NCBI RefSeq assembly: GCF_003053725.1
Contig: NZ_QAYC01000006.1
Location: 1-64,000 of the forward strand
Direction: 5' to 3'
Length of the DNA: 64,000 bases
Source of the DNA: Rhodovulum kholense
Lineage (GTDB): Bacteria > Pseudomonadota > Alphaproteobacteria > Rhodobacterales > Rhodobacteraceae
The notes under the pieces were generated by a model, which was given only the letters and a program-made list of their open reading frames with translations, was not told the origin of the DNA and ran no database searches. How positions within the stretch are numbered: the stretch's first letter is position 1; the number at the start of each line of letters is the position of its first letter. The translations under genes and the position numbers were made by a program. Below, piece by piece: positions 1 through 39,408 of this stretch.

Positions 1-113
1 CAGAACCCTTCCGGGTCCTCGACCGATTGCCGGTACATCGCCTCATACGCCGCAGCGTCAATATGAGCCCCGGACACAAAATCCGGATCCGGCGGGTAGA
101 TATGCTCAGTCAT
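1..113 (-). CDS. acs: Acetyl-coenzyme A synthetase, N-terminal fragment (cut by window edge)
   Basis: Reading the complement from the ATG at 113 gives 37 codons running off the window edge. The peptide contains YEAMYRQSVEDPEGF, the typical start of AMP-forming acetyl-CoA synthetases (E. coli Acs has YEAMYQQSI at the same place). The enzyme activates acetate to acetyl-CoA via acetyl-AMP. Only the N-terminus is visible, so catalytic motifs cannot be checked. It lies 70 bases downstream of the last gene of the ABC transporter and on the same strand, so it is probably the last gene of that operon. Confidence 0.8.
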   Translation of the reverse strand, partial: MTEHIYPPDPDFVSGAHIDAAAYEAMYRQSVEDPEGF

Positions 114-183: not shown

Positions 184-939
184 TCAGATGGCCAGGTATT
201 CTGCCCTGAGGGCGTCGTTCTTCAGAACCTCGGCGGCGCTGCCGTCGAAAACGATCTGGCCCGTATCGAGTATGACGGCCCGGTCGGAAAGTTCCAAGGC
301 CCGGATCGCGTTCTGTTCGACAATCACGGTGGTGATGCCCTGTTCCTTGATATGAACCAGCGTTTTCTCGATTTCGTCGACAATCACCGGGGCGAGCCCT
401 TCATAGGGTTCGTCGAGAAGAAGCACCTTGATATCGCGTGCCAGCGCCCGGGCGATGGCCAGCATCTGCTGTTCGCCGCCCGAGAGCGTCACGCCTTCCT
501 GTTTGCGGCGTTCGCCGAGCCGGGGGAAAAGATCGTAAAGCCGCTCGAGCGACCAGCCCACGGGCGGCACGATCTGGGCAAGTTGCAGGTTTTCCTCGAC
601 GGTGAGGCCCGGAATGATCCGCCGGTCCTCGGGCACCAGCCCCAGGCCCGCCGCGCTGGCCTGGTGGGCGGCCATCGTGTGCAGGGGCGCATGGTCCAGC
701 CAGATCTCGCCATAGGTGACCTGCGGGCTTGCCAGCCGGGCGATGGCGCGCAGGGTCGAGGTCTTGCCCGCGCCGTTCCGGCCCAGCAGCGCCAGGATCT
801 CGCCCTCGTGGACGTTGAAGCTGACGCCCTGCACGATGTAGCTTTCGCCGTAATAGGCATGCAGATCGTAGACCGACAGAAAGGCCGGTGCCGTGGCGGC
901 CTGGTTGGCGTTCTTGTTGAAGTCGGGTTTGACGTTCAT
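184..939 (-). CDS. LivF-type ABC transporter ATP-binding protein
   Basis: A 251-residue ATPase of a branched-chain-amino-acid-type (HAAT) importer. Visible motifs are Walker A (LLGRNGAGKTST), the signature LSGGEQQMLAIARAL and Walker B (VLLLDEPYEGLAP). An open frame continues upstream to 1086, but the ATG at 939 is preceded by the purine-rich GAGGGGGATCAG and gives the family's normal length. It is the last transporter gene, 10 bases after the LivG-type gene and 70 bases before acs. The Liv family moves amino acids, but also urea, amides and other carboxylates, so the substrate cannot be read from this gene. The acs context suggests a link to short-chain carboxylate metabolism (inference). Confidence 0.93.
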   Translation of the reverse strand: MNVKPDFNKNANQAATAPAFLSVYDLHAYYGESYIVQGVSFNVHEGEILALLGRNGAGKTSTLRAIARLASPQVTYGEIWLDHAPLHTMAAHQASAAGLGLVPEDRRIIPGLTVEENLQLAQIVPPVGWSLERLYDLFPRLGERRKQEGVTLSGGEQQMLAIARALARDIKVLLLDEPYEGLAPVIVDEIEKTLVHIKEQGITTVIVEQNAIRALELSDRAVILDTGQIVFDGSAAEVLKNDALRAEYLAI

Positions 940-949
940 CTGATCCCCC

Positions 950-1705
950 TCAATGCGCCTGGCCCAGATAGGCTTCCTGCACCTTCGGATGGCCCTTGAT
1001 CTTTTCGGGCACATCCTCGACCAGCGGCGTTCCCTGGGCCAGAACCGTGATCCGGTCGGCCAGGCTGAACACGACATGCATGTCATGTTCGATGATCGCC
1101 ATGGTGATGTTGCGCGTGGCCTTGATGTCCTTCAGCAGGTCGATGGTGTTGTTGGTATCGGCCCGCGCCATCCCGGCGGTGGGTTCGTCCAGCAGCAACA
1201 GTTTGGGCTCCTGCACGAGGCACATCGCCATTTCCAGCCGCCGCTTGTCGCCGCGCGAGAGGCTCGAGGCCTGCATGCCCGCCTTGTCGAGCATGTTGAC
1301 GTCGTCCAGCATCTGTTCGGCCCGGGCCACGATATCCCGTTCATGGGCCACGGTTTCGAAGGCATGCATCCGGAACGCCCCGTCGCGCTTGGCGAAACAG
1401 GGGATCAGGACGTTTTCCAGAACCGTCAGATCGCCGAAGATCTCGGGCGTCTGGAACACCCGGGAAATGCCCAGCTGGTTGATCTCGTGCGGCTTGCGCC
1501 CCAGCACCGACTGGCCGTCGAACATCACCGATCCGGTATCGGGGATCAGCTTGCCGACGAGGCAGTTCAGCAGCGTCGACTTGCCCGCGCCGTTCGGCCC
1601 GATGATCGCATGCACGGTGTTCTCGGCGACCGAGAGGTTCACGTCGCCCAGCGCCTGCAAGCCTCCGAAGCGCTTGTTGACGCCCTTGACTTCAAGAATG
1701 CCCAT
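950..1705 (-). CDS. LivG-type ABC transporter ATP-binding protein
   Basis: A 251-residue ATPase, the second nucleotide-binding subunit of the HAAT-type importer. It has Walker A (IIGPNGAGKSTLLNCL), a signature region reading LSRGDKRRLEMAMCL, and Walker B (LLLLDEPTAGM). The signature is SRGDKRR rather than the canonical SGGQ-type sequence, a variation also known in LivG/UrtD-like ATPases. It should pair with the LivF-type ATPase on the cytoplasmic face of the two permeases. The gene sits between the LivM-type permease (12-base gap) and the LivF-type ATPase (10-base gap), a tight operon arrangement. Confidence 0.92.
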   Translation of the reverse strand: MGILEVKGVNKRFGGLQALGDVNLSVAENTVHAIIGPNGAGKSTLLNCLVGKLIPDTGSVMFDGQSVLGRKPHEINQLGISRVFQTPEIFGDLTVLENVLIPCFAKRDGAFRMHAFETVAHERDIVARAEQMLDDVNMLDKAGMQASSLSRGDKRRLEMAMCLVQEPKLLLLDEPTAGMARADTNNTIDLLKDIKATRNITMAIIEHDMHVVFSLADRITVLAQGTPLVEDVPEKIKGHPKVQEAYLGQAH

Positions 1706-1717
1706 CGCTCGTTCTCC

Positions 1718-2929
1718 TCATTCGGCCATGTGCGGGGCGGCGGTCGGGCGGTGTTCGGGGTCCTTGCGCTTGGGCCCGCCGGACTTGCGCCGCCGCACCA
1801 GCCGCCAGATCCGCTGCATCCCCTCGACCAGCCCGCCGGGCAGGAAGATCACCACCAGCATGAACAGGATGCCCAGCGTCAGATGCCAGCCCTTGCCCAC
1901 GAAGGGGTGGAAGCAGGCGACGATGAAATCCTCAAGCCCATCGGGCAGGAAGGCGAACCAGCCATGCAGGATGCCGTCGTTGATCTTCGAGAAGATGTTC
2001 TCGAAATACTTGATGAAGCCCGCGCCCAGCACCGGTCCCATCAGGGTGCCCGCGCCGCCGAGGATGGTCATCAGCACGACCTCGCCCGAGGCGGTCCACT
2101 GCATCCGCTCGGCGCCCGCCAGCGGGTCCATCGCCGCCAGCAGCCCGCCCGCAAGCCCGGCATACATGCCCGAGATCACGAAGGCCGCCAGCGTATAGGG
2201 GCGCGAGTTGAGCCCGGTATAGTTCATGCGCGTCTGGTTGGTCTTGATCGCGCGCAGCATCATCCCGAAGGGCGAGCGGAAGATCCTGAGGCTGATATAG
2301 AAGGCCAGGATCGCCATCACCGCGCAGAAATAATAGCCCACGTTGAAGGTGAAGACCCAGCCGCCCAGATCGACCTGGGCCGAGTTGCGCATCACCAGAC
2401 CGAACAGATGCGGGCTGGTCGGCGCGCCGCTGCCCGCCAGGATCTGCGGGTCGCTGGCATAGACCTGCAGCCCGGTCTCGCCATTGGTGATTGGCGTCAG
2501 CACCGAATAGGCGAGGTTATAGCTCATCTGCGCGAAGGCCAGCGTCAGGATCGAGAAATAGATGCCCGAGCGGCGGAGCGAGATGAAGCCGATCAGCAAT
2601 GCGAAGGCGGCCGAGATCACCACCGACAGCAAAAGCCCCGGCAACACGTTGTAGCCCAGCAGCTTGTACATCCAGACGACTGTATATGAGCCCACCCCCA
2701 GGAAGGCGGCATGGCCGAAGGACAGGTATCCGGTCAGCCCGAACAGGATGTTGAAGCCGATGGCGAAGATCCCGAAGATCGCGAATTTCTGCATCAGGTC
2801 GGGATAGCCCGCGTTGAACTGTGCAAGGCTCGAGCCTTCAGGGAAGGGTTGCAGAAGGATCGGGGTCAGCAGGGTCAGCGCGATCACGATCAGCAGGAAA
2901 CGGGTATCTCTGGCACTCAGTCCGAACAT
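1718..2929 (-). CDS. LivM-type ABC transporter permease
   Basis: A 403-residue polytopic inner-membrane protein of the branched-chain-amino-acid permease family. It has many hydrophobic segments and the family's [21 protein letters not shown]-type region near residues 60-80, plus a cytoplasmic-loop region around [16 protein letters not shown]. It forms the translocation pore with the LivH-type protein, whose gene ends 4 bases upstream of this ATG. The C-terminal tail is Lys/Arg/Pro-rich. Substrate is not determined by sequence. Confidence 0.92.
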
Positions 2930-2933
2930 TGGG

Positions 2934-3965
2934 TCAGTCCTCCATCACGCCCTTGCGGCCCATCAGCCCGCGCGGGCGGGTCAGCAGGATCACGATTGCC
3001 ACGAGGTAGATGATCACCTGGTCGATGCCGGGGATCAGGCTTTTGACCTCGTTCATCGAGGCAAAGCTCTGCAGGATGCCCAGCAGGAACCCGGCCAGCA
3101 CCGCGCCGGGCAGCGAGCCCATGCCGCCGACGACGACGACGACGAAGCTGAGCACGAGGAAATCCATCCCCATGTGATAATTCGGCGCGAGGATCGGCGT
3201 GTACATCACGCCCGCCAGCCCCGCCACGGCGGCCGCGAGCCCGAACATCAGGGTAAAGCGGCGGTCGATGTCGATGCCCAGCAGGCCCACCGTCTCGCGG
3301 TCGGCCATGCCCGCGCGCACGACCATGCCGAAGGTGGTGAATTGCAAAAAGGCGAAGACGCCGCCGATGATCACCAGCGAGAACAGGAAATAGACCATCC
3401 GCCAGTAGGGATAGATGATCACGTTGGGATCGAAGCCCAGCAGCGTGCCGAAATCGAAGCTGCCGGAAAAGGCCGAGGGCGCCCCGGTCTGGATCGGATT
3501 GGCGCCGAAGAAATACTTGATGATCTCCTGCAGCACGATGGCCAGCCCGAAGGTCACCAGGATCTGGTCGGCATGGGGCCGCTTGTAGAAATGCTTGATC
3601 AGCCCGCGCTCCATCGCAAAGCCGAGCCCGATCATCACCGGAATGGCCAGCAGGATGCCCAGGGGCACGGACCAGTCGACGATTGCGCCCCCCAGATCGG
3701 GGCCGAACCAGTGTTCGACATAGGGCACCTCGACCTTCAGCGGATTGCCCAGAAAGTCGGTGCGGGTCGGGTCGATCTCTTCATAGGACAGGCTCAGCAG
3801 GCGCTGCATCGTCACGGCGCAGAAGGCGCCGATCATGAACAGCGCGCCATGGGCGAAGTTCACGACCCCCAGCGTGCCGAAAATCAGCGTAAGCCCCAGC
3901 GCGATCAGCGCATAGGCCGAGCCCTTGTCGAGCCCGTTCAGGATTTGAAGGATAATGGCGTCCAT
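2934..3965 (-). CDS. LivH-type ABC transporter permease
   Basis: A 343-residue integral membrane permease of the LivH family. The start [20 protein letters not shown] and the [19 protein letters not shown] region are characteristic. It contains an insertion of about 40 residues after the second membrane segment (around [16 protein letters not shown]), longer than in classical LivH. It is the first permease gene after the binding-protein gene and is separated from it by a 110-base spacer with strong hairpins. That layout is usual where the binding protein must be made in excess. Confidence 0.92.
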
Positions 3966-4075: not shown

Positions 4076-5425
4076 TCAGGCGCCGTTGTTGCACTGGCCG
4101 AGGGTCGCCTCGGCGCCGCCGAACATCGGGTGATCCGGCGGATAGGTGACGTGATCGACCGGGGTGACCTCGACGATCTCGAGGATGTCGTACTTGGTCG
4201 ACGGGTTTTCCTTGCCCTTCATGACCAGCACGTCCTTGAAGCACTGGTGATCCTCGGCGCGGTAGAGGACGGGACCGTTGCCCATGCCGTCGAATTCGAA
4301 GCCTTCCAGCGCCTCGGCCACAGCGCAAGGGTCGAACGACCCCGCCCGCGCCACGGCATCCGCGTAAAGCAGCGTCTGCACGTAGCAGGTATGGGCCGAG
4401 TTCGACGGCGGACGGCCGTATTTCTCGCCGAAGGACTTGACGAAGGCCTTGGTGCCCGGATCGGACAGCTGCCAGTTCCAGTTCATCGAGCCGTAGACGC
4501 CCTTGATGTTGTCGCCCGCGCCCTCGGCCATCAGTTCGGAATAAAGCGGCACGACGATCTCGAACTGCTTGCCGTTGACCTGCTTGTCGCGCAGGCCGAA
4601 CTGCACCGCCTGGGTGATCGAGTTGATCATGTCGCCGCCGTAATGGTTCAGGACCAGCACATCGGCGCCCGAGTTCAGCACCGGCGCGATATAGGACGAG
4701 AAATCGCCCGCGCCGACCGGGGTCAGCACGTTGTTGACGGTCTCCCAGCCGATCGCCTCGGTCGAGGCCTGGATCGATTCCTGCTGGGTGTAGCCCCAGG
4801 TGTAATCGGCGGTCAGGTGATAGGCGCGCCGGTCGGTGCCATAGGCCTTTTCCAGCACCGGCGCGAGCGCCGCGCCCGACATGTAGGCGTTGAAGAAATG
4901 GCGAAAGCCGTTCTTCTTGCGGTCCTTGCCGGTGGTGTCGTTGGAATGGGTGAGACCCGCCATGAAGATGATGCCGGCTTCCTGGCAGAGGCCCTGCACC
5001 GCGACGGCGACGCCCGAGGACGAACCGCCGTTGATCATGACGACGCCGTCCTTCTCGATCATCGCCTTGGCCGAGGCGCGGGCGGCGTCCGATTTGGTCT
5101 GGGTATCGCCGGTCACGTATTCGACCTGCTTGCCGAGGATGCCGGTGCCGTCCAGCGCCTTGGAGCTGAAGGTGTTCAGCATGCCGCCGTCGCCCATGCC
5201 GTTCAGATGCTCGACCGCCAGTTCCTGGGCGCGCAGCTCGTCAAGGCCTTCGTCGGCATAAGGGCCGGTCTGCGGCACGTTGAAGCCGAAGGTGACGGTG
5301 TTTCCGCTCGGGGCGTTGGTGAAGGCCCGGGCCCGCGAGGTGAAGATGGTGGGCAGCGCCAGTCCGGCGCCGGCATACGCACCTGTCTTGATCACGCCGC
5401 GGCGTGTCAGGGTCGATTTCGTCAT
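4076..5425 (-). CDS. Substrate-binding protein of HAAT-type ABC transporter, Tat-type leader
   Basis: A 449-residue periplasmic binding protein of the Peripla_BP_6 / amide-urea-binding class. The N-terminus has a twin-arginine leader: TRRGVIKTG, then a hydrophobic stretch ending near SRARAF. The start at 5425 is chosen because GGGAGG lies 6 bases upstream; the in-frame ATG at 5431 overlaps that ribosome site. It heads the transporter operon, facing the ScfR-type regulator across a 220-base divergent promoter region. Branched-chain amino acids, amides and short carboxylates are all possible ligands. The acs and ScfR neighbours favour an organic acid, without proof. Confidence 0.9.
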   Translation of the reverse strand: MTKSTLTRRGVIKTGAYAGAGLALPTIFTSRARAFTNAPSGNTVTFGFNVPQTGPYADEGLDELRAQELAVEHLNGMGDGGMLNTFSSKALDGTGILGKQVEYVTGDTQTKSDAARASAKAMIEKDGVVMINGGSSSGVAVAVQGLCQEAGIIFMAGLTHSNDTTGKDRKKNGFRHFFNAYMSGAALAPVLEKAYGTDRRAYHLTADYTWGYTQQESIQASTEAIGWETVNNVLTPVGAGDFSSYIAPVLNSGADVLVLNHYGGDMINSITQAVQFGLRDKQVNGKQFEIVVPLYSELMAEGAGDNIKGVYGSMNWNWQLSDPGTKAFVKSFGEKYGRPPSNSAHTCYVQTLLYADAVARAGSFDPCAVAEALEGFEFDGMGNGPVLYRAEDHQCFKDVLVMKGKENPSTKYDILEIVEVTPVDHVTYPPDHPMFGGAEATLGQCNNGA

Positions 5426-5648
5426 GGGCATCCTCCCGTGATGCTTGAATGTCGGGCCCCTGCCTCCTCTTGCCGGAGCCCAGCGCTTTACAAAGCACAT
5501 TCAGTATCGGGGGTGTCGCGAAAATAAGGCAACAACTGCTTTTCCCCGCAGGATTTTTTTGTAAACAATTACACAGGGGCCTTGGGAGGGGAGTCAATTA
5601 ATTGTCTTGCAGGTGCAGAAAGCCCTTGTCGGGCAACAGGAAATCGCG
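5426..5648. promoter_or_regulatory. Divergent promoter region with inverted TTTACAAA / TTTGTAAA boxes
   Basis: This AT-richer spacer separates the transporter operon (leftward) from the ScfR-type regulator (rightward). TTTACAAA occurs at 5487-5494 and its exact reverse complement TTTGTAAA at 5558-5565, about 71 bases apart. The first lies within the near-palindrome GCTTTACAAAGC. ScfR/PccR-type regulators are known to bind TTTGC-AAA-like boxes, so these are candidate operators for the adjacent regulator (inference). Clear -10/-35 pairs could not be assigned. Confidence 0.5.
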
Positions 5649-6959
5649 ATGCCCCGCAGCGCGCTGACCGGCACCCGGATTCGCGAACGCCGCACGATGA
5701 TCGGCATGCGCCAGGCCGATCTGGCCCGTCTCGCCGGAATATCCCCGTCCTATCTGAATCTCATCGAGCACAATCGTCGCAGAATCGGCGGAAAGCTTCT
5801 GGTCGAGCTGGCTCGCAACCTGGGCGTCGAGGCCTCGGCGCTGACCGAGGGCGCGGGCGCCGCCCTGATCGAGACCCTGCGCGAGGCCGCCGCGGGCCAT
5901 GGCGAGGCCGAAGCCGACCTGCCGCGGCTCGAGGAATTCGCGGGCCGGTTTCCGGGCTGGGCCGGGCTGATCGCCGAGAGGCACCGCCGCGTGCGCGAGC
6001 TCGAACGCACGGTCGAGATGCTGACCGACCGCATGACCCATGACCCGTTCCTGTCGGCCTCGCTGCACGAGGTGATCTCGGCCGTGACCGCGATCCGCTC
6101 GACCGCGGCGATCCTGGCCGATACCGAGGATATCGACCCTGACTGGCAGCGCCGCTTTCACCGCAACCTCAGCGACGACAGCCGCCGTCTGGCCGAAGGC
6201 GCGCAGGCGCTCGTCGCCTATCTCGACGAGGGCACCGAAGATCCGGGCGTGCAATCCTCGCCGCAGGAGGAGGTCGAGGCCTTCCTGCGCGCCCGCGACT
6301 GGCACATGCCGGAACTGGAACGCAGCCTGCCGCCCGATCCGGCGCGGATCGTGGCCGAGGCGCGCGAGCTGACCTCGGGGCCCGCGCGGGAACTGGCGCT
6401 GGCGCATCTGAAACGCTACCGGCGCGATGCCGAGCTGATGCCGCTTCAGCGGTTTTCCGAGGCGGCGCGGGGGGCGGCACTCGACCCGGGCGCGCTGGCC
6501 CAGGCTTTCGGGGTCGATCCGGGGGCGGCGTTCCGGCGGCTGGCCGCGCTGCCCGAGGATCGCGCGGGCGGGTCCGTGGGGCTGGTGGCCTGCGACGGCT
6601 CGGGCACGCTGACCTTCCGCAAGCCGGTCGAGGGGTTTTCGCTGCCCCGCTTCGGCGCGGCCTGTCCGCTCTGGCCGCTTTATCAGGCGCTGTCGCGGCC
6701 GATGGCGCCGGTCCGCGCGGTGGTCGAGCTGGGCGGCGCGACGCCGCAACGCTTCCTGACCTATGCGATCTGCCAGCCGGTTCTGGCGGCGGGATTCGAC
6801 GGGCCGCAGGTGCTGGAGGCGGCGATGCTGATCCTGCCCGAGGGCACCGTCGCCCTGCCGCGGATGGCGGCGCAGCCGGTCGGCACCTCCTGCCGGATCT
6901 GCCCGCGCCGCGGCTGCGTCGCGCGGCGCGAGCCCTCGATCCTGGCCGACGGCTTCTGA
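5649..6959 (+). CDS. ScfR/PccR-family XRE transcriptional regulator with a histidine-kinase DHp-like middle segment
   Basis: A 436-residue regulator. Residues ~5-65 are an XRE helix-turn-helix (RQADLARLAGISPSYLNLIE). The C-terminus has the Cys-rich motif SCRICPRRGC, shared with the second ScfR protein of this window at 38005, so both belong to the short-chain fatty acyl-CoA regulator family. Around residues 131-195 the segment HDPFLSASLHEVISAVTAIR matches the kinase dimerisation/phosphoacceptor helix, with His140 at the phosphoacceptor position. The Pro of the usual HELRTP box is missing. The ATG at 5649 follows AGGAAATCGCG; an upstream frame opens at 5607. It is followed by a response regulator and a sensor kinase and faces the acs-linked transporter. 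Confidence 0.85.
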   Translation: MPRSALTGTRIRERRTMIGMRQADLARLAGISPSYLNLIEHNRRRIGGKLLVELARNLGVEASALTEGAGAALIETLREAAAGHGEAEADLPRLEEFAGRFPGWAGLIAERHRRVRELERTVEMLTDRMTHDPFLSASLHEVISAVTAIRSTAAILADTEDIDPDWQRRFHRNLSDDSRRLAEGAQALVAYLDEGTEDPGVQSSPQEEVEAFLRARDWHMPELERSLPPDPARIVAEARELTSGPARELALAHLKRYRRDAELMPLQRFSEAARGAALDPGALAQAFGVDPGAAFRRLAALPEDRAGGSVGLVACDGSGTLTFRKPVEGFSLPRFGAACPLWPLYQALSRPMAPVRAVVELGGATPQRFLTYAICQPVLAAGFDGPQVLEAAMLILPEGTVALPRMAAQPVGTSCRICPRRGCVARREPSILADGF

Positions 6960-7048
6960 TGTCGGGTTTTGACAGGGACAGGCTTTGGGATGATAGTCGA
7001 CAGACAAGCGGGGCACGAACGCCCGCACGGGGAGGGGAGAGACCGGGG

Positions 7049-7417
7049 ATGGACAAGCGTGTCCTGCTGATCGAGGACGAACCGAACATCATCGAGGCGA
7101 TCCGGTTCATCCTCGCCCGCGACGGCTGGCGCGTCGATACCCATGCCGACGGCACCACCGCCTTCGACCGGGTCGCCGAGACCCGGCCAGATATCGTCAT
7201 TCTCGACGTGATGCTGCCCGGCCGGTCGGGCTTCGATATCCTGCGCGACATTCGCGCGGATGCCGGGCTTGGCGGGTTGCCGGTGCTGATGCTGACCGCC
7301 AAGGGGCAGGTCAAGGACCGCGATCTGGCCGAACGCATGGGGGCGAGCCGCTTCATGGCCAAGCCCTTCTCGAACACCGAGGTTCTGGCCTCGGTGCGGG
7401 AACTGACGGGCGCCTGA
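7049..7417 (+). CDS. Stand-alone REC-domain response regulator
   Basis: A 122-residue single receiver domain. Acidic residues at 9-11 (EDE), phosphoacceptor Asp53 (VILDVMLPG), the conserved Thr in MLTAKG and Lys in AKPF are all present, so it should be phosphorylatable. It has no DNA-binding or enzymatic output domain and must act through a partner. The ATG at 7049 is preceded by a purine-rich GGAGGGGAGAG region; the longer frame from 6959 has no such site. It lies 90 bases after the ScfR-type regulator and one base before the small membrane protein, in one apparent operon with the sensor kinase. Confidence 0.92.
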   Translation: MDKRVLLIEDEPNIIEAIRFILARDGWRVDTHADGTTAFDRVAETRPDIVILDVMLPGRSGFDILRDIRADAGLGGLPVLMLTAKGQVKDRDLAERMGASRFMAKPFSNTEVLASVRELTGA

Positions 7418-7418
7418 G

Positions 7419-7703
7419 ATGGCCCGCGCGCCGCTGTTCCTGGCCCGCGAGGGGTATCGGCGGCGGCGGCTCGCGGACATGGCGCGGCTGTTGCCGGTGC
7501 TGGGAGCGGCGCTGTTCCTGGTGCCCGCGCTCGATGCCCGCGACGGGCTCGGGTCGGGCATGCTGATCTATCTGTTCAGCGCCTGGTTCGGACTGATCCT
7601 CGCCTCGGCCTTCGTGTCTGCCCGGCTTGCGCGCGCGGCCCCGTCCGAGGGCGCGGACCCCTCCGCCGAGCCCGCCGCCGAACCGCCCGAGGAGGCGTCA
7701 TGA
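7419..7703 (+). CDS. Small two-segment membrane protein
   Basis: A 94-residue protein with a basic N-terminus, two hydrophobic segments (about residues 22-40 and 46-70) and a Pro/Glu/Ala-rich tail. Its ATG starts one base after the response-regulator stop. Its stop overlaps the sensor-kinase ATG by four bases, so the three are almost certainly co-translated. Small two-helix proteins such as DUF4212 proteins accompany some SLC5 sodium/solute symporters, and a subunit of the transporter-like sensor is a reasonable guess. I do not recognise a family with confidence. Confidence 0.75.
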   Translation: MARAPLFLAREGYRRRRLADMARLLPVLGAALFLVPALDARDGLGSGMLIYLFSAWFGLILASAFVSARLARAAPSEGADPSAEPAAEPPEEAS

Positions 7704-10393
7704 TCGCCTTCGACATGCTCGTCGCGATCTGTCTTTTCTATGTGGCGATCCTCTTCGGCGTGGCCTTCCTGGCCGAGCGCGGCGGCAGGCGCGGCAGCAA
7801 TGCCTGGCTGCGCTCGCCTCTGGTCTACACGCTGTCGCTGTCGGTCTACTGCACCGCCTGGACCTTCTACGGTGCGGTCGGCTACGCGGCGCGTTCGGGG
7901 CTGGAATTCGTCACCATCTATCTGGGGCCGACGCTGGTGCTGATCGGCTGGTGGTGGACGCTCAGAAAGCTGGTTCGGATCGGCAAGACCCAGCGGATCA
8001 CCTCGATCGCCGACCTGATCTCGTCGCGCTACGGCAAGTCGAACATGCTGGGGGTGATTGTCACCCTGATCGCGGTCGTGGGCACGACGCCCTATATCGC
8101 ACTGCAGCTGCAATCGGTGACGCTATCCTTCGCGGTCTTTGCCGCCGCCGGTGCGCCGGGGCCGTGGCAGCTGGTCGACCTGAACGCCGCGGCCTTCAGC
8201 GTCGCCATCGGGCTTGCGGTCTTCACCGTCTTCTTCGGCACCCGCAATCTCGATGCCAACGAACGCCATCACGGCGTCGTCACCGCCATCGCGGTCGAGG
8301 CGGTGGTCAAGCTGATCGCGCTATTGGCGGTCGGCATCTTCGTGGTCTGGGGCATCGGCGGCGGTGCACAGGCGACACTGGACCGGATCGAGGCCTCGCC
8401 GCTGGCGGGCATGCCGGTGGCGCCGGGGCGCTGGATCGGGCTGACCTTCCTTGCGGGCGCCGCGATCCTGACGTTGCCCCGGATGTTCCAGGTGCTGGTG
8501 GTCGAGAACGAGGACGAACGCCATCTGGCGACCGCCGCCTGGGCCTTTCCGGGCTATGTCTTCCTGATGAGCCTCTTCGTGGTGCCCATCGCCGCGATCG
8601 GGCTGGCCGAGATGCCGCCCGGTGCCAATCCCGATCTTTTCGTTCTGACCCTGCCGCTGGCGCAGGGCCGGGACGGGCTGGCGACGCTGGCCTTCCTGGG
8701 CGGGTTCTCGTCGGCCACCTCGATGGTGATCGTGGCCGCCATCGCGCTGTCGACCATGGTCTCGAACCATATCGTCATGCCGCTTTTCCTGCACTGGACA
8801 CGGTCGGGCGCCACCATGTCGGGCGATGTCCGCACGCTGGTGCTGCGCGCGCGGCGGCTCTCGATCGGGGGGGTGCTGCTGCTGGGCTATCTTTACTACC
8901 GGCTGACCGGCGGCAGCGAGGCGCTGGCCGAGATCGGGCTGATCTCGTTTGCGGGCGTGGCCCAGGTGCTGCCCGCGCTTCTGGGCGGCATCCTGTGGCG
9001 CGGCGCGACCCGGGCCGGGGCGCTGGCCGGGCTGACCGTCGGGTTTTCGCTTTGGGCCTATACGCTGTTCCTGCCCAGCTTCGGCGAGGGCGCGGTGATG
9101 AGCGCGGGGCTGCTGGCCGACGGCCCCTGGGGCATCGGCTGGCTGCGGCCGCAGGGGCTTTTCGGGCTCGACGGGCTCGATCCGCTGGTCCATGCGGTGG
9201 TGTTCTCGATGGGGGCCAATGCGCTGGCCTTCACGCTGGTTTCGCTGTTCGATTTCCCCGGCCCGATGGAGCGGCTGCAGGCGGCGCAGTTCGTCAACGT
9301 GTTCGACCATTCGCCCGCCGGGCAGGGCTGGAGCCAGGGCCGCGCCGAGGCCGAGGACCTGCTGTTGATGGCGCAACGCATCCTTGGCGCGGACGATGCG
9401 CAAAGGCTGTTCCAGCGCGCCGCGGCCGATCAGGGCAAGCAGGGCTATCTGCCCGACACGACCCCCGAATTCCTGCGCGGGCTGGAACGCAAGCTGGCCG
9501 GGTCGGTGGGGGCGGCCACGGCCCATGCGATGGTCGGCCAGATCGTCGGGCGGTCGTCGGTCTCTGTCGAGGATCTGATGAAGGTCGCCGACGAAACCGC
9601 ACAGATGATGGAATATTCCAGCCAGCTCGAAGCCAAGTCCGAGGAACTGGCCCGCACCGCGCGGCAGCTACGCGAGGTCAACGAAAAGCTGACCGAGCTT
9701 TCTGTGCAGAAGGATGCCTTTCTCAGCCAGATCAGCCACGAGCTGCGCACGCCGATGACCTCGATCCGGGCATTCTCCGAGATCCTGATGGAAGACGATG
9801 CGCTGCCGCCCGAGCGTCTGGCCGACTACTCGCGGATCATCCATCAGGAAAGCATGCGGCTGACGCGGCTGCTTGACGATCTGCTGGATCTGTCGGTGCT
9901 GGAGAACGGCCAGGTGTCGCTGCATCCGCAGCCAGTCAGCCTGTCCGATCTCTTGGACCGGTCTGTCGCGGCGGCAGGGGGGCGGTCGGGCCGGGCGCCG
10001 ATGGCGATCCGCCGCGATCCGGCGGCCGAGCGGGTAGATCTGGTCACCGATGGCGACCGGCTGAGCCAGGTCTTCATCAACCTCGTGTCGAACGCGCAGA
10101 AATATTGCGATGCCGCCGATCCGGTCCTGACCATTTCGGTGACCGAGGTCGAGGGCCGCGTAGCGGTCGATTTCGTCGACAATGGCAGCGGCATCCCTGA
10201 TCGCAGCCAGTCGATCATCTTCGAGAAATTCTCGCGCCTGTCCGATCCGCGCAAGGCGGGCGGCGCGGGGCTGGGGCTTGCGATCTGCCGCGAGATCATG
10301 GTGCGGCTCGGCGGGTCCATCGTCTATCTGCCGGGTCGGGGCGGGGCGGCCTTCCGCGTGACGCTTCCGAGCCGCTGTGCCGAGGCGGCCTGA
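7700..10393 (+). CDS. SLC5 transporter / STAC-like / histidine kinase fusion sensor (CrbS/CbrA-like)
   Basis: An 897-residue fusion. Residues ~1-520 form a sodium/solute symporter (SLC5/PutP-like) module with about 13 membrane segments. A helical, soluble linker around 530-650 resembles the STAC domain and ends in a coiled coil. Residues ~670-897 are a histidine kinase: DHp box ISHELRTP with His680, N-box INLVSNAQKY, G1 VDNGSGI and G2 GAGLGLAI. Such proteins couple solute sensing or transport to phosphorylation; CrbS regulates acs in Pseudomonas and Vibrio. Here acs lies just beyond the divergent transporter operon. The likely partner is the REC-only protein at 7049. Acetate as signal is inference from context. 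Confidence 0.9.
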   Translation: MIAFDMLVAICLFYVAILFGVAFLAERGGRRGSNAWLRSPLVYTLSLSVYCTAWTFYGAVGYAARSGLEFVTIYLGPTLVLIGWWWTLRKLVRIGKTQRITSIADLISSRYGKSNMLGVIVTLIAVVGTTPYIALQLQSVTLSFAVFAAAGAPGPWQLVDLNAAAFSVAIGLAVFTVFFGTRNLDANERHHGVVTAIAVEAVVKLIALLAVGIFVVWGIGGGAQATLDRIEASPLAGMPVAPGRWIGLTFLAGAAILTLPRMFQVLVVENEDERHLATAAWAFPGYVFLMSLFVVPIAAIGLAEMPPGANPDLFVLTLPLAQGRDGLATLAFLGGFSSATSMVIVAAIALSTMVSNHIVMPLFLHWTRSGATMSGDVRTLVLRARRLSIGGVLLLGYLYYRLTGGSEALAEIGLISFAGVAQVLPALLGGILWRGATRAGALAGLTVGFSLWAYTLFLPSFGEGAVMSAGLLADGPWGIGWLRPQGLFGLDGLDPLVHAVVFSMGANALAFTLVSLFDFPGPMERLQAAQFVNVFDHSPAGQGWSQGRAEAEDLLLMAQRILGADDAQRLFQRAAADQGKQGYLPDTTPEFLRGLERKLAGSVGAATAHAMVGQIVGRSSVSVEDLMKVADETAQMMEYSSQLEAKSEELARTARQLREVNEKLTELSVQKDAFLSQISHELRTPMTSIRAFSEILMEDDALPPERLADYSRIIHQESMRLTRLLDDLLDLSVLENGQVSLHPQPVSLSDLLDRSVAAAGGRSGRAPMAIRRDPAAERVDLVTDGDRLSQVFINLVSNAQKYCDAADPVLTISVTEVEGRVAVDFVDNGSGIPDRSQSIIFEKFSRLSDPRKAGGAGLGLAICREIMVRLGGSIVYLPGRGGAAFRVTLPSRCAEAA

Positions 10394-10488: not shown

Positions 10489-11700
10489 ATGGCAGAGAAC
10501 GGACATCAGGCAATCCTGCGGCGAATCCTCGGTGAAGACCGGGTGTCGCTTGGCGGGGCGCGGGGCGGCGGCAGCGATGGGGTCGCAGCACTCCGGCTCG
10601 AAACGGCACGCGCCACGCGCGAGTCCTTCGGGCTGACCGCCCTGGTCGAGGAATGCAAGGCCGAACGGACCGGCTTGCCGGAGATCGAGGCCGAAGTGAC
10701 CGACGACTCGCTGGCGATCCTGCTGCGCGGCCCCGACGGGCGGCTTGGCCTCGTGGTCTATTCCGCCGATCTGGCGATGGCGCTTCTGGAATGGCGTCTG
10801 GTGGGCTTCCTGTCCGAAACCGCGCCGCCCGCCCGCGCGCTGACCGCCACCGACGCGGCGGTGCTGGCCGACCTGACCGACCCGATCCTTACCCGCTTCG
10901 CGCGCGCCATGAAAGAGGCCAGCGGCGCCGACTGGGCCAGCGGCTTTGCCCAGGGCGCGCGGATCGACGACCCGCGTCATGTGCCCTTGCTCATGGCGGC
11001 CGGGCGCTACCGGCTGTACCGGCTGAAACTGTTGGCCGGGCGCGGGCGCAGCGGCGGCCTGATCATCGCCTTGCCCGAGGCGGCGCCGGTGGCGCGACCG
11101 AAGGCGGCCGAAAAGATCGCTCGACCCTGGCCCGAAGCGCTGCGCGCCGGTGTGCTGGGGGCCGAGTTGTCGCTGAACGCGGTGCTCTGGCGGACCCGGA
11201 TGTCGGCGGCCGGGGTTGCGCGGCTCAAGCCCGGTGCTCTGCTGTCGCTGCCCGCTGCGGCGCTGGGCGCGGTCCAGCTTGAAGGGCCGGGGGGCGTGGT
11301 GGTCGCGGGCGGGCGGCTCGGTCAGGCCCATGGCGACCGCGCGATCAAGCTCGACAGCGAGGCCGGTGCGGCAGACGATCCCGGCTTCGGGGGCGGCATG
11401 CCGGATCAGGGCGGATTGGGCACGGGTCTGCCCGGGGGCGATCCGCTGCAGATTGGGTCCGACCTGCCGATGGAGGATGGCGGTTTTCCCTTCGGCGAGG
11501 CGGCCGAAGAGGGGGGGCTCGACTTCGCGGCCGAGGCGGGGGGCGCCGGAGGGTTCGACCTGGGCGGCGAAGAGTTCCCGTTCGACCCGGGCGGGCTCGA
11601 CAGCGATCTGGAAAACGCGCTGCAGAACGACCTCGACCTGAGCGGGTTCGGTTCGGCGCCGCTCGATCTGTCCGAGGAATTCCCCGCCGCTTCGGCCTAG
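10489..11700 (+). CDS. FliM/FliN-family flagellar motor-switch-like protein with long acidic tail
   Basis: A 403-residue protein whose N-terminal half resembles the FliM/FliN (SpoA) C-ring family as found outside the main flagellar cluster in Rhodobacterales. The SpoA-like domain lies at about residues 215-285 (AELSLNAVLWRTRMS, then LKPGALLSLP). The last ~110 residues are a low-complexity tail rich in Gly, Asp, Glu and Phe. No flagellar genes are adjacent. It follows the sensor kinase by 95 bases on the same strand and may have its own promoter. It could be a C-ring component or a type III-like sorting-platform protein; the family assignment is good, the partner unknown. Confidence 0.7.
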   Translation: MAENGHQAILRRILGEDRVSLGGARGGGSDGVAALRLETARATRESFGLTALVEECKAERTGLPEIEAEVTDDSLAILLRGPDGRLGLVVYSADLAMALLEWRLVGFLSETAPPARALTATDAAVLADLTDPILTRFARAMKEASGADWASGFAQGARIDDPRHVPLLMAAGRYRLYRLKLLAGRGRSGGLIIALPEAAPVARPKAAEKIARPWPEALRAGVLGAELSLNAVLWRTRMSAAGVARLKPGALLSLPAAALGAVQLEGPGGVVVAGGRLGQAHGDRAIKLDSEAGAADDPGFGGGMPDQGGLGTGLPGGDPLQIGSDLPMEDGGFPFGEAAEEGGLDFAAEAGGAGGFDLGGEEFPFDPGGLDSDLENALQNDLDLSGFGSAPLDLSEEFPAASA

Positions 11701-38004: not shown

Positions 38005-39408
38005 TCAGTCGGCGACCTCGTAGGGCAAGAGGCCGCGACGGTTGGCATCGACCGTCAGGCGCCGTTCCAGCGGCGGCACGGCGCGCTGGTGGCAGTCGCG
38101 GCGTTCGCAGATCCGGCACGAGATCCCTATGGGTTCGTAGGCGGCGGAATTGCCGGTATCGAGATCGTCGGCATAGACCAGCTGATCGGCATGGCGCACC
38201 TCGCAGCCCAGCCCGATGGCATAGCGGCGGACCGGGGCACGCCAGGCGCCCCCCGGTTTCGACACGTCGCGGGCCAGCGAGACATAGCGCAGCCCGTCCG
38301 GCGTCTCGGCCAGCTGGCGCAGGAACCGTCCCGGCGTCTCGAAGGCGCGATGCACGTTCCAGAGCGGGCAGGCGCCCCCGAACCGCGCGAATTGCAGCCG
38401 CGTGGTCGAGTGGCGCTTGGTGATCGTTCCGGCCTGATCGACCCGCACGAAGAAGAAGGGAAGCCCCTTGGCGCCGGGGCGCTGCAGGGTCGAAAGCCGG
38501 TGGGCCACCTGCTCGATCGAGGCGCCGAAGCGGTCCGCCAGCAGTTCCAGATCGTGGCGGGTTTCCTGCGCCGCCTCGAGGAAGCGGTTATAGGGCAGGA
38601 GTGCCGCGCCCGCGAAATAATTGGCCATGCCGATCCGGGCGATGGCGCGGGCCGCCGGGCTTTGGAACCGGGCGAGGTCCAGCGTGGCTTCCAGCAGTTG
38701 CGACTGTGTCAGAAGGGCGATCTGGTGCAATAGCTGAAACCGCCGGGTCGGGCCGCGCAGATGGCTGGACAGGGTCAGCGTGCGGCTGTCTTCGTCATAG
38801 GCACGAAGCCCGGGAATATCCTTGAAGGTCAAAGATATGCCCTGCGATTCCAATGCGGCGAGGGCGCGCTGTTCCGGGTCGGGGCCGCCTTCCGGTCCGC
38901 GTGCGAAACGTTCCGCTGCGCGGTCCATGGCGTCGATGTAATTGTCGCAATAGTGAAAGAAGTCGCGCACCTCCTCCCAAGGGGACGGCCCCAGGGACGC
39001 ATCTTCACGCCCCAGCGCCTCGTCGAGTGAGGCAAGCCGTTCATGGCTTTGGCGATAGGCGCGGTGCAGTTCCAGAAAGGCGCGGGCCAGCGCCGGGGCG
39101 TTCGAGGCGGCAAGCCTGAGATCGGCCAGCGGCGGGGCCAGGTCGCTGAAGACCGGGTCGGCCAGCGCCTCGCGCATGTCGCTGACCAGGCGTTCGGCAT
39201 CGCCTTCGGACAGTTCGGTGACGTCGAAGCCGAATTCCGAGGCCAGCGCCAGCAGCACGGAGGACGAGACCGGACGGTTGTTGTTCTCCATCTGGTTCAG
39301 ATAGGGCAGCGAGATCCCCAGCCGGGCCGCGAAGTCCTTCTGGGTCAGTCCCAGCCGCGTCCGCGTCTCGCGCAGCTTGACGCCGGCATAGAGTTTGCGT
39401 GTCGCCAT
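38005..39408 (-). CDS. pccR: PccR, short-chain fatty acyl-CoA regulator (ScfR family)
   Basis: A 467-residue regulator. Residues ~5-65 are an XRE helix-turn-helix (LTQKDFAARLGISLPYLNQ). The middle is an IrrE/ImmA-like (DUF955) region in which the metalloprotease helix is degenerate (LLHQIALL). The C-terminal ScfR domain ends in SCRICERRDCHQRAVPP. In Rhodobacter sphaeroides, PccR is reported to sense propionyl-CoA and control pccB. Here it lies 3 kb from pccB, and TTTGC boxes precede both. It is on the opposite strand to pccB, after the Bcr/CflA gene with its own promoter region. Confidence 0.9.
   Translation of the reverse strand: MATRKLYAGVKLRETRTRLGLTQKDFAARLGISLPYLNQMENNNRPVSSSVLLALASEFGFDVTELSEGDAERLVSDMREALADPVFSDLAPPLADLRLAASNAPALARAFLELHRAYRQSHERLASLDEALGREDASLGPSPWEEVRDFFHYCDNYIDAMDRAAERFARGPEGGPDPEQRALAALESQGISLTFKDIPGLRAYDEDSRTLTLSSHLRGPTRRFQLLHQIALLTQSQLLEATLDLARFQSPAARAIARIGMANYFAGAALLPYNRFLEAAQETRHDLELLADRFGASIEQVAHRLSTLQRPGAKGLPFFFVRVDQAGTITKRHSTTRLQFARFGGACPLWNVHRAFETPGRFLRQLAETPDGLRYVSLARDVSKPGGAWRAPVRRYAIGLGCEVRHADQLVYADDLDTGNSAAYEPIGISCRICERRDCHQRAVPPLERRLTVDANRRGLLPYEVAD

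Follow-up and report, generated by a model that had tools for sequence, protein, structure and literature searches.

The two-component systems CrbS/R, CbrA/B and RpuS/R share one type of histidine kinase and serve the use of acetate, histidine (or glucose) and pyruvate, respectively; CrbS/R is described as controlling acs together with actP, which encodes an acetate symporter (PMC5715377), and RpuS/R as controlling the pyruvate symporter MctP (PMC9100948). Here we analyze a locus in a 64,000-nucleotide stretch of Rhodovulum kholense DNA (positions 1 to 64,000 of contig NZ_QAYC01000006.1, the whole of which we call the window) that encodes a kinase of the same architecture, again with a transporter and an acs-like gene beside the regulator. 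CbrB combines a receiver (REC), an AAA+ and a helix-turn-helix (HTH) domain in one protein (PMC13022988) and CrbR belongs to the LuxR family (PMC5715377), whereas here the receiver is a free protein and the DNA-binding protein is an ScfR-type regulator that carries a hairpin of the DHp type (dimerization and histidine phosphotransfer). The nearest mechanistic parallels are Spo0B and ChpT, whose DHp bundles have no autokinase activity and relay phosphate through a histidine (His33 in ChpT; PMC3433190). These are separate relay proteins (PMC3433190), whereas the hairpin described here lies inside a DNA-binding protein, and ChpT has an ATPase-like domain (PMC3433190), whereas a Pfam search of the regulator shows no HATPase domain.

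The regulator resembles RamB, PrpR/MccR and PccR in having an HTH, a PF09856 domain and a C-X2-C-X4-C motif. Adjacency to a two-component system is already in print for Pden_1785 of Paracoccus denitrificans, which probably belongs to the same family as the regulator described here: a single sentence places this ScfR-network protein in a cluster with such a system, and that passage makes no mention of a hairpin (PMC10370305). Among the titles and abstract beginnings listed in searches of open-licence literature we found no report of an ScfR or XRE regulator with a DHp hairpin, and no description of the wiring proposed below.

Four genes form a single run on the + strand: the ScfR-type regulator (P0001, 436 residues, 5649..6959), a REC-only response regulator (P0002, 7049..7417), a 94-residue protein (P0004, 7419..7703) and an SLC5/STAC histidine kinase (P0003, 7700..10393). 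Facing them on the - strand are the genes of a branched-chain amino acid/urea-type ATP-binding cassette (ABC) transporter, followed by the start of the acs-like gene at the window edge. We interpret the operon as a split response regulator, in which the kinase would phosphorylate the REC protein and the phosphorylated REC protein would pass the phosphate on to the DNA-binding protein at its His140, and we give this reading a probability of roughly 55%. An order of kinase, REC protein and regulator is the simplest interpretation because a REC protein without an output domain is accompanied by a DNA-binding protein with a hairpin of the receiver-docking type, related to that of its likely kinase.

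The initial annotation, made from the sequence of the window, had claimed that the regulator contains a kinase-like segment without a kinase ATPase domain, and the segment can now be asserted more firmly than at first. Residues 134-150 of the regulator read FLSASLHEVISAVTAIR and include His140 (codon 6066..6068), the kinase reads FLSQISHELRTPMTSIR around His680, and S-x-R-L comes later in both proteins. When the regulator is searched against its own genome it matches the neighboring kinase over residues 99-183 (E 0.0017), and alone it gives a weak NCBIfam CreC match over residues 116-183 (E 0.0017). A first hairpin profile was made from residues 98-200 of 54 near-orthologue sequences, the near orthologues being the best 80 of 201 found in a search with peptide patterns, among them a pair (127-134 and 160-167) that lies on either side of His140 and leaves it out. 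This profile aligns with that of the neighboring kinase's hairpin at 7.9e-9, with His on His, and a wider profile of 39 rows, to which distant class-level regulators were added, does so at 2.3e-18, also with His on His. Pfam HisKA is found at E<=1 in 25 of the 39 members of the wider set (best 6.1e-11, in the distant relative L143), and the wider profile matches HK853 structures at 5e-5 in a PDB list that has kinases on top and includes unrelated chains, the best of them 5h79 (protein A) at 6.5e-4. Because class-level relatives were added to the profile, the HisKA assignment is secure at the family level. The hairpin of the regulator (residues 131-196, 6039..6236) is therefore classed from these profiles, together with structure models, alignment and a tree, as DHp-type, securely across the family and below threshold in the window protein alone.

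Two trivial explanations were rejected. A chance motif does not account for the recovery of the neighboring kinase in the own-genome search or for the family profile matches, and misassembly with the kinase gene is excluded by the same frame being found again in 80 named contigs.

Structure prediction agrees with a helical hairpin. The AlphaFold2 model of the regulator, a monomer model from a 56-sequence alignment (mean pLDDT 84.4, pTM 0.56), has helices at residues 102-131, 133-158 and 164-196, with His140 near the start of the second and confidence falling at 129-131 and 196-201. The segment predicted by itself gives identical helices (pLDDT 80.6, pTM 0.63; 65-76 in the other four models). 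The predicted hairpin, coming after a long helix (residues 102-131, 5952..6041), fits one half of a dimeric four-helix bundle. In Foldseek searches with the segment the first eight matches are kinases or LvrB at E 0.06-0.15, none below 0.001; HK853, VC2136 and SrrB are among the top kinases, and the matches range over E 0.06-0.6 with unrelated helical proteins interspersed. The full model finds PrpR and HTH proteins, with no kinase among the 50 matches listed.

The genome holds 27 HisKA matches, and the closest relative of the hairpin among its proteins is, by profile score, the adjacent SLC5/STAC kinase: it scores 30.9 bits with the 54-sequence profile and 52.4 bits with the wider profile, versus 8.8 and 20.9 bits for the next kinase frame. 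A tree computed from only 64 columns, with hairpins from 42 regulators, 41 SLC5 kinases and 22 other kinases, leaves many forks unresolved and has long branches meeting. One branch (SH-aLRT 98) separates the regulators from the rest, another (96) separates the other kinases, and the SLC5 kinases are between them. The tree gives the hairpin a single origin, beside the SLC5 kinases. An alignment with the two other full-length ScfR proteins of the genome reveals the hairpin as an insertion: it takes up about 65 columns following the linker helix and lies between that helix and the C-terminal part with the putative Fe-S motif. It is missing from seven other ScfR proteins in total, these two and five from genomes G348, G051 and G056.

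The proposed partners have the expected composition. The REC protein has 122 residues and a single domain (Response_reg, 3.2e-25), with its phosphorylation residues, including Asp53 (codon 7205..7207), intact, and Pfam finds no output domain. Residues 6-612 of the kinase (7715..9535) match the CbrA SLC5-STAC structure 10ED (PMC13022988) at E 2.2e-73, Pfam finding no family in residues 1-640; HisKA follows at residues 671-737, including His680 (9710..9910, 1.5e-17), and the catalytic HATPase domain at 784-891 (10049..10372, 8.5e-22). Asp10, Glu11, Asp53, Thr/Ser83 and Lys105 are present throughout the REC alignment (113 of 113 rows), and His680 in 74 of 77 kinase rows, the other three being gapped. 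Six of the 113 related REC frames are 202-337 residues long from stop to stop and extend upstream of REC.

The three genes also occur together widely. In 385 alphaproteobacterial genomes, regulator-sized frames (418-599 residues) were found at E<=1.3e-10 in 40, and 39 of these have a second, weaker match in a frame of 894-1041 residues; the exception, G064, is 68% complete. We fetched 33 of the 40, apart from the genome of the window, and in each of them the second frame conforms to the SLC5-kinase model and the regulator, REC protein and SLC5 kinase are all present somewhere in the genome. A REC frame lies no more than 120 bases away on the same strand in 24 of these 33 loci. Of the 80 near loci, 69 have a REC frame at most 1 kb away on the same strand, 77 have one anywhere in the locus and 76 contain the kinase; in L043, L067 and L076 the REC gene is outside the locus stretch, and a close REC is encoded elsewhere in the genome. 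The hairpin segment itself is retained in all 80 near orthologues. The initial annotation's interpretation is supported in part: its account of an output-less REC protein with Asp53, an SLC5-type kinase and the three-gene arrangement is upheld, and the loss of the segment from orthologues that keep the REC gene, which it named as grounds for refutation, is not seen. Two arrangements differ: in L128 (G080) the regulator adjoins the kinase with no REC gene between them, the likely REC being on another contig, and in L141 and L147 the kinase and regulator genes are convergent.

Sampling one genome per genus, 264 of 295 Rhodobacteraceae genomes match at E<=1e-6, kinase-only matches included; the best match is below 1e-20 in 259 and weaker in G402, G411, G533, G597 and G633, and the frames among the matches listed (to about E 7e-34) have 222-554 residues. 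Outside the class, 29 of 398 genomes of a phylum sample match at E<=1e-10, once each, in frames that are kinase-sized (903-981 residues) in 28 cases and 530 residues long in the remaining one.

DHp domains dimerize, and the hairpin could have been captured as a dimer module with no link to REC. The homotetrameric state of PrpR (PMC6765138) points the same way, but the hairpin is most closely related to that of the kinase whose gene accompanies the REC gene, every fetched genome has all three genes, and a specific constraint falls on the His, so that we consider dimerization alone very improbable.

That constraint is evident in the alignments. His140 is kept in 81 of 81 sequences when the near orthologues are taken with the window protein, and in 112 of 114 aligned regulators, the exceptions being L144 and L145 (one genus), which have Gln; L201 and L202 (another genus), read by eye, have Phe, bringing the total to 112 of 116. 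The next residue is E or D in 85 of 85 sequences within the family and in 3 of 29 class-level regulators outside it. An acid beside the phosphoacceptor His is used in autophosphorylation. Since the His is strongly retained and the adjacent acid is lost outside the family, the hairpin fits a supply of phosphate from the phosphorylated REC protein rather than from ATP. The close relationship of the regulator and kinase hairpins would also be compatible with phosphorylation of His140 directly by the kinase catalytic domain, or within a mixed kinase-regulator hairpin dimer; but the acid is rare in just those regulators outside the family, and a membrane-bound kinase would need to reach a DNA-bound protein, which makes this route hard to credit.

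Several results weigh against the DHp assignment or against the relay through His140. As to the assignment, a Pfam search with the regulator by itself gives no HisKA match at E<=1, so that the DHp assignment of the initial annotation holds with significance in relatives and not in the window protein. HisKA matches 18 of the first 54 relatives (best 6.8e-4) and an unrelated family 16 of them, and a PDB search with the 54-sequence profile brings up no kinase at E<=1; the wider profile settled these points. The aligned rows are related, and the motif and residue counts are therefore inflated. Covariation of the regulator or kinase hairpin with REC (MI-APC, 104 matched sets) gives no interface signal, and the kinase-REC positive control failed too. 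Eight genomes with apparently no hairpin regulator were examined, and G041 and G342 proved to have one, with Phe. In G056, G131, G348 and G087 the REC protein and SLC5 kinase are present with no hairpin regulator detected, and in G051 and G316, where the comparison covered regulator and kinase, there is a kinase-sized match and no hairpin regulator. The occurrence of the REC and SLC5 kinase pair without a detected hairpin regulator in the first four of these genomes shows that it is older or has other outputs.

The regulators L144, L145, L201 and L202 retain the hairpin without the His and count in the same direction. Because the fold survives in these two genera, docking alone is a serious rival: the phosphorylated REC protein would join the regulator at the hairpin and act as its allosteric or co-regulatory subunit, with the phosphate remaining on Asp53, a role that suits a REC protein with no output domain of its own. 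A His in 112 of 116 regulators beside a residue that turns over outside the family is hard to explain by shape alone, and we regard docking without transfer as the principal alternative, though an unlikely one. None of the four His-less regulators directly adjoins a REC gene and kinase gene, but several His-bearing ones are unlinked too, and the position proves nothing. These natural Gln and Phe versions are a useful comparison for docking without phosphate.

The place four residues after the His is the phosphatase residue in HisKA kinases, and E/DxxT/N, with the acidic residue following the His, is a phosphatase motif. The regulators have S, T or N there in 114 of 114 cases, which also counts against a relay in that it would suit a phosphatase or phosphate sink, the hairpin draining the phosphorylated REC protein and the regulator setting the sensitivity of the kinase pathway. 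The acid of the motif is absent from 26 of the 29 class-level regulators outside the family, and we consider such a role improbable.

If the operon is a split response regulator, the SLC5/STAC kinase would sense a small carboxylate or its transport, autophosphorylate on His680 and phosphorylate Asp53 of the free REC protein. The phosphorylated REC protein would dock on the hairpin of the regulator, in the way that response regulators dock on their kinases, and hand the phosphate to His140; the phosphorylated hairpin would reorient the HTH or sensor parts of the regulator and so alter expression of the facing transporter (and of acs in the Rhodobacteraceae). On a more specific form of this proposal, to which we give about even odds, a phosphorelay would end on a His of a DNA-binding protein: an acyl-CoA-type one-component regulator would have been wired to a transporter-kinase by an inserted copy of that kinase type's hairpin, with the free receiver carrying phosphate to and fro between two paralogous hairpins. 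Two-component wiring could then be inverted, with a kinase-type domain on the output protein and the receiver as a free messenger, which suggests a simple route for placing a ligand-sensing regulator under kinase control. The output-less receiver would acquire a specific partner, a direct test of phosphotransfer becomes possible, and the regulator concerned is that of most Rhodobacteraceae genera sampled.

In other respects the regulator shows features of ScfR proteins. It has an N-terminal XRE-type HTH (residues 11-62, 5679..5834; HTH_3, 1.8e-11) and a C-terminal PF09856 domain (residues 312-431, 6582..6941; 1.9e-13, 51 bits against a cut-off of 24), and PrpR is its best solved relative. Each of the three cysteines of its C-X2-C-X4-C motif (Cys415, 418 and 423; 6891..6917) is present in 112 of 114 aligned regulators, two being gapped, and together with Cys339 they form a candidate [4Fe4S] site, as in PrpR, for which the cysteine cluster motif has been described (PMC6765138). 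With the ScfR cysteines retained, the regulator may combine a phospho-signal with Fe-S or acyl-CoA input. It scores 116 bits against the RamB equivalog NF038139, below the curated cut-off of 700. The two other full-length ScfR proteins of the genome (P0005 and P0006) have Peptidase_M78/IrrE-like domains (PF06114) and no hairpin, whereas the hairpin regulator is the reverse, a Pfam search finding no PF06114 in its middle region. Six class-level relatives retain more of the ScfR middle region in the alignment, whereas much of this region is gone from the Rhodobacteraceae branch, so that its absence looks like a later loss in this branch. P0005, a RamB-type ScfR of 467 residues, is encoded at 38005-39408 (-), about 31 kb from the hairpin regulator, and a fourth ScfR match outside the window (G000:C11:8355-8606, -) is a 170-residue frame with only the second half of PF09856.

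The facing transporter genes, all on the - strand, encode a substrate-binding protein (4076..5431, start codon uncertain; Peripla_BP_6, 1.2e-73), a LivH/UrtB-like permease identified by family profile matches (2934..3965) and, named from sequence and position, a LivM-like permease (1718..2929), a LivG-like ATPase (950..1705) and a LivF-like ATPase (184..939, start uncertain). The first 37 codons of the acs-like gene (3..113, -), cut by the window edge, were recognized by alignment to the counterpart in L011, which matches NCBIfam acetate--CoA ligase. The gene of the substrate-binding protein lies opposite the regulator gene in 65 of the 80 near loci (contig ends truncate some of these loci) and in 29 of the 33 class-level loci; of the remaining four, L141, L143 and L147 have a facing sodium:solute symporter gene (L143 by family search, L141 and L147 by eye) and L146 has neither. 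An acs gene follows the transporter in the window and, of the four near loci inspected, in L011 (tested) and in L055 and L083 (both by eye) but not in L019. At class level L119, L127 and L132 were inspected, and no acs gene was seen in the locus stretch of any of them. An upstream motif scan found TTTACAAA at 5487..5494 and TTTGTAAA at 5558..5565, with no strand assigned. The box TTT[AG][CT]AAA occurs in 70 of 114 upstream regions of 320 bases (91 copies), compared with about 1.8 regions expected from mononucleotide shuffles, a count inflated by the relatedness of the regions. From the conserved divergent layout and the common upstream box we infer that the facing transporter is the regulator's target. 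For RamB of P. denitrificans, binding to two boxes of nearly the same sequence is described (PMC10370305).

The same four genes are annotated in Paracoccus ferrooxidans as an XRE family transcriptional regulator, a response regulator, a hypothetical protein and a sodium:solute symporter, and the genes upstream are other than those in the window. The 94-residue protein, whose gene is overlapped by the kinase start by four bases, has homologues in many near loci and a position like that of CbrX ahead of CbrA; CbrX binds the transporter domain of CbrA (PMC13022988). The gene 3' of the kinase (10489-11700, +) has a weak FliMN_C match and a Paracoccus counterpart annotated as FliM/FliN family, and its relatives come next in many loci of the hairpin-regulator family.

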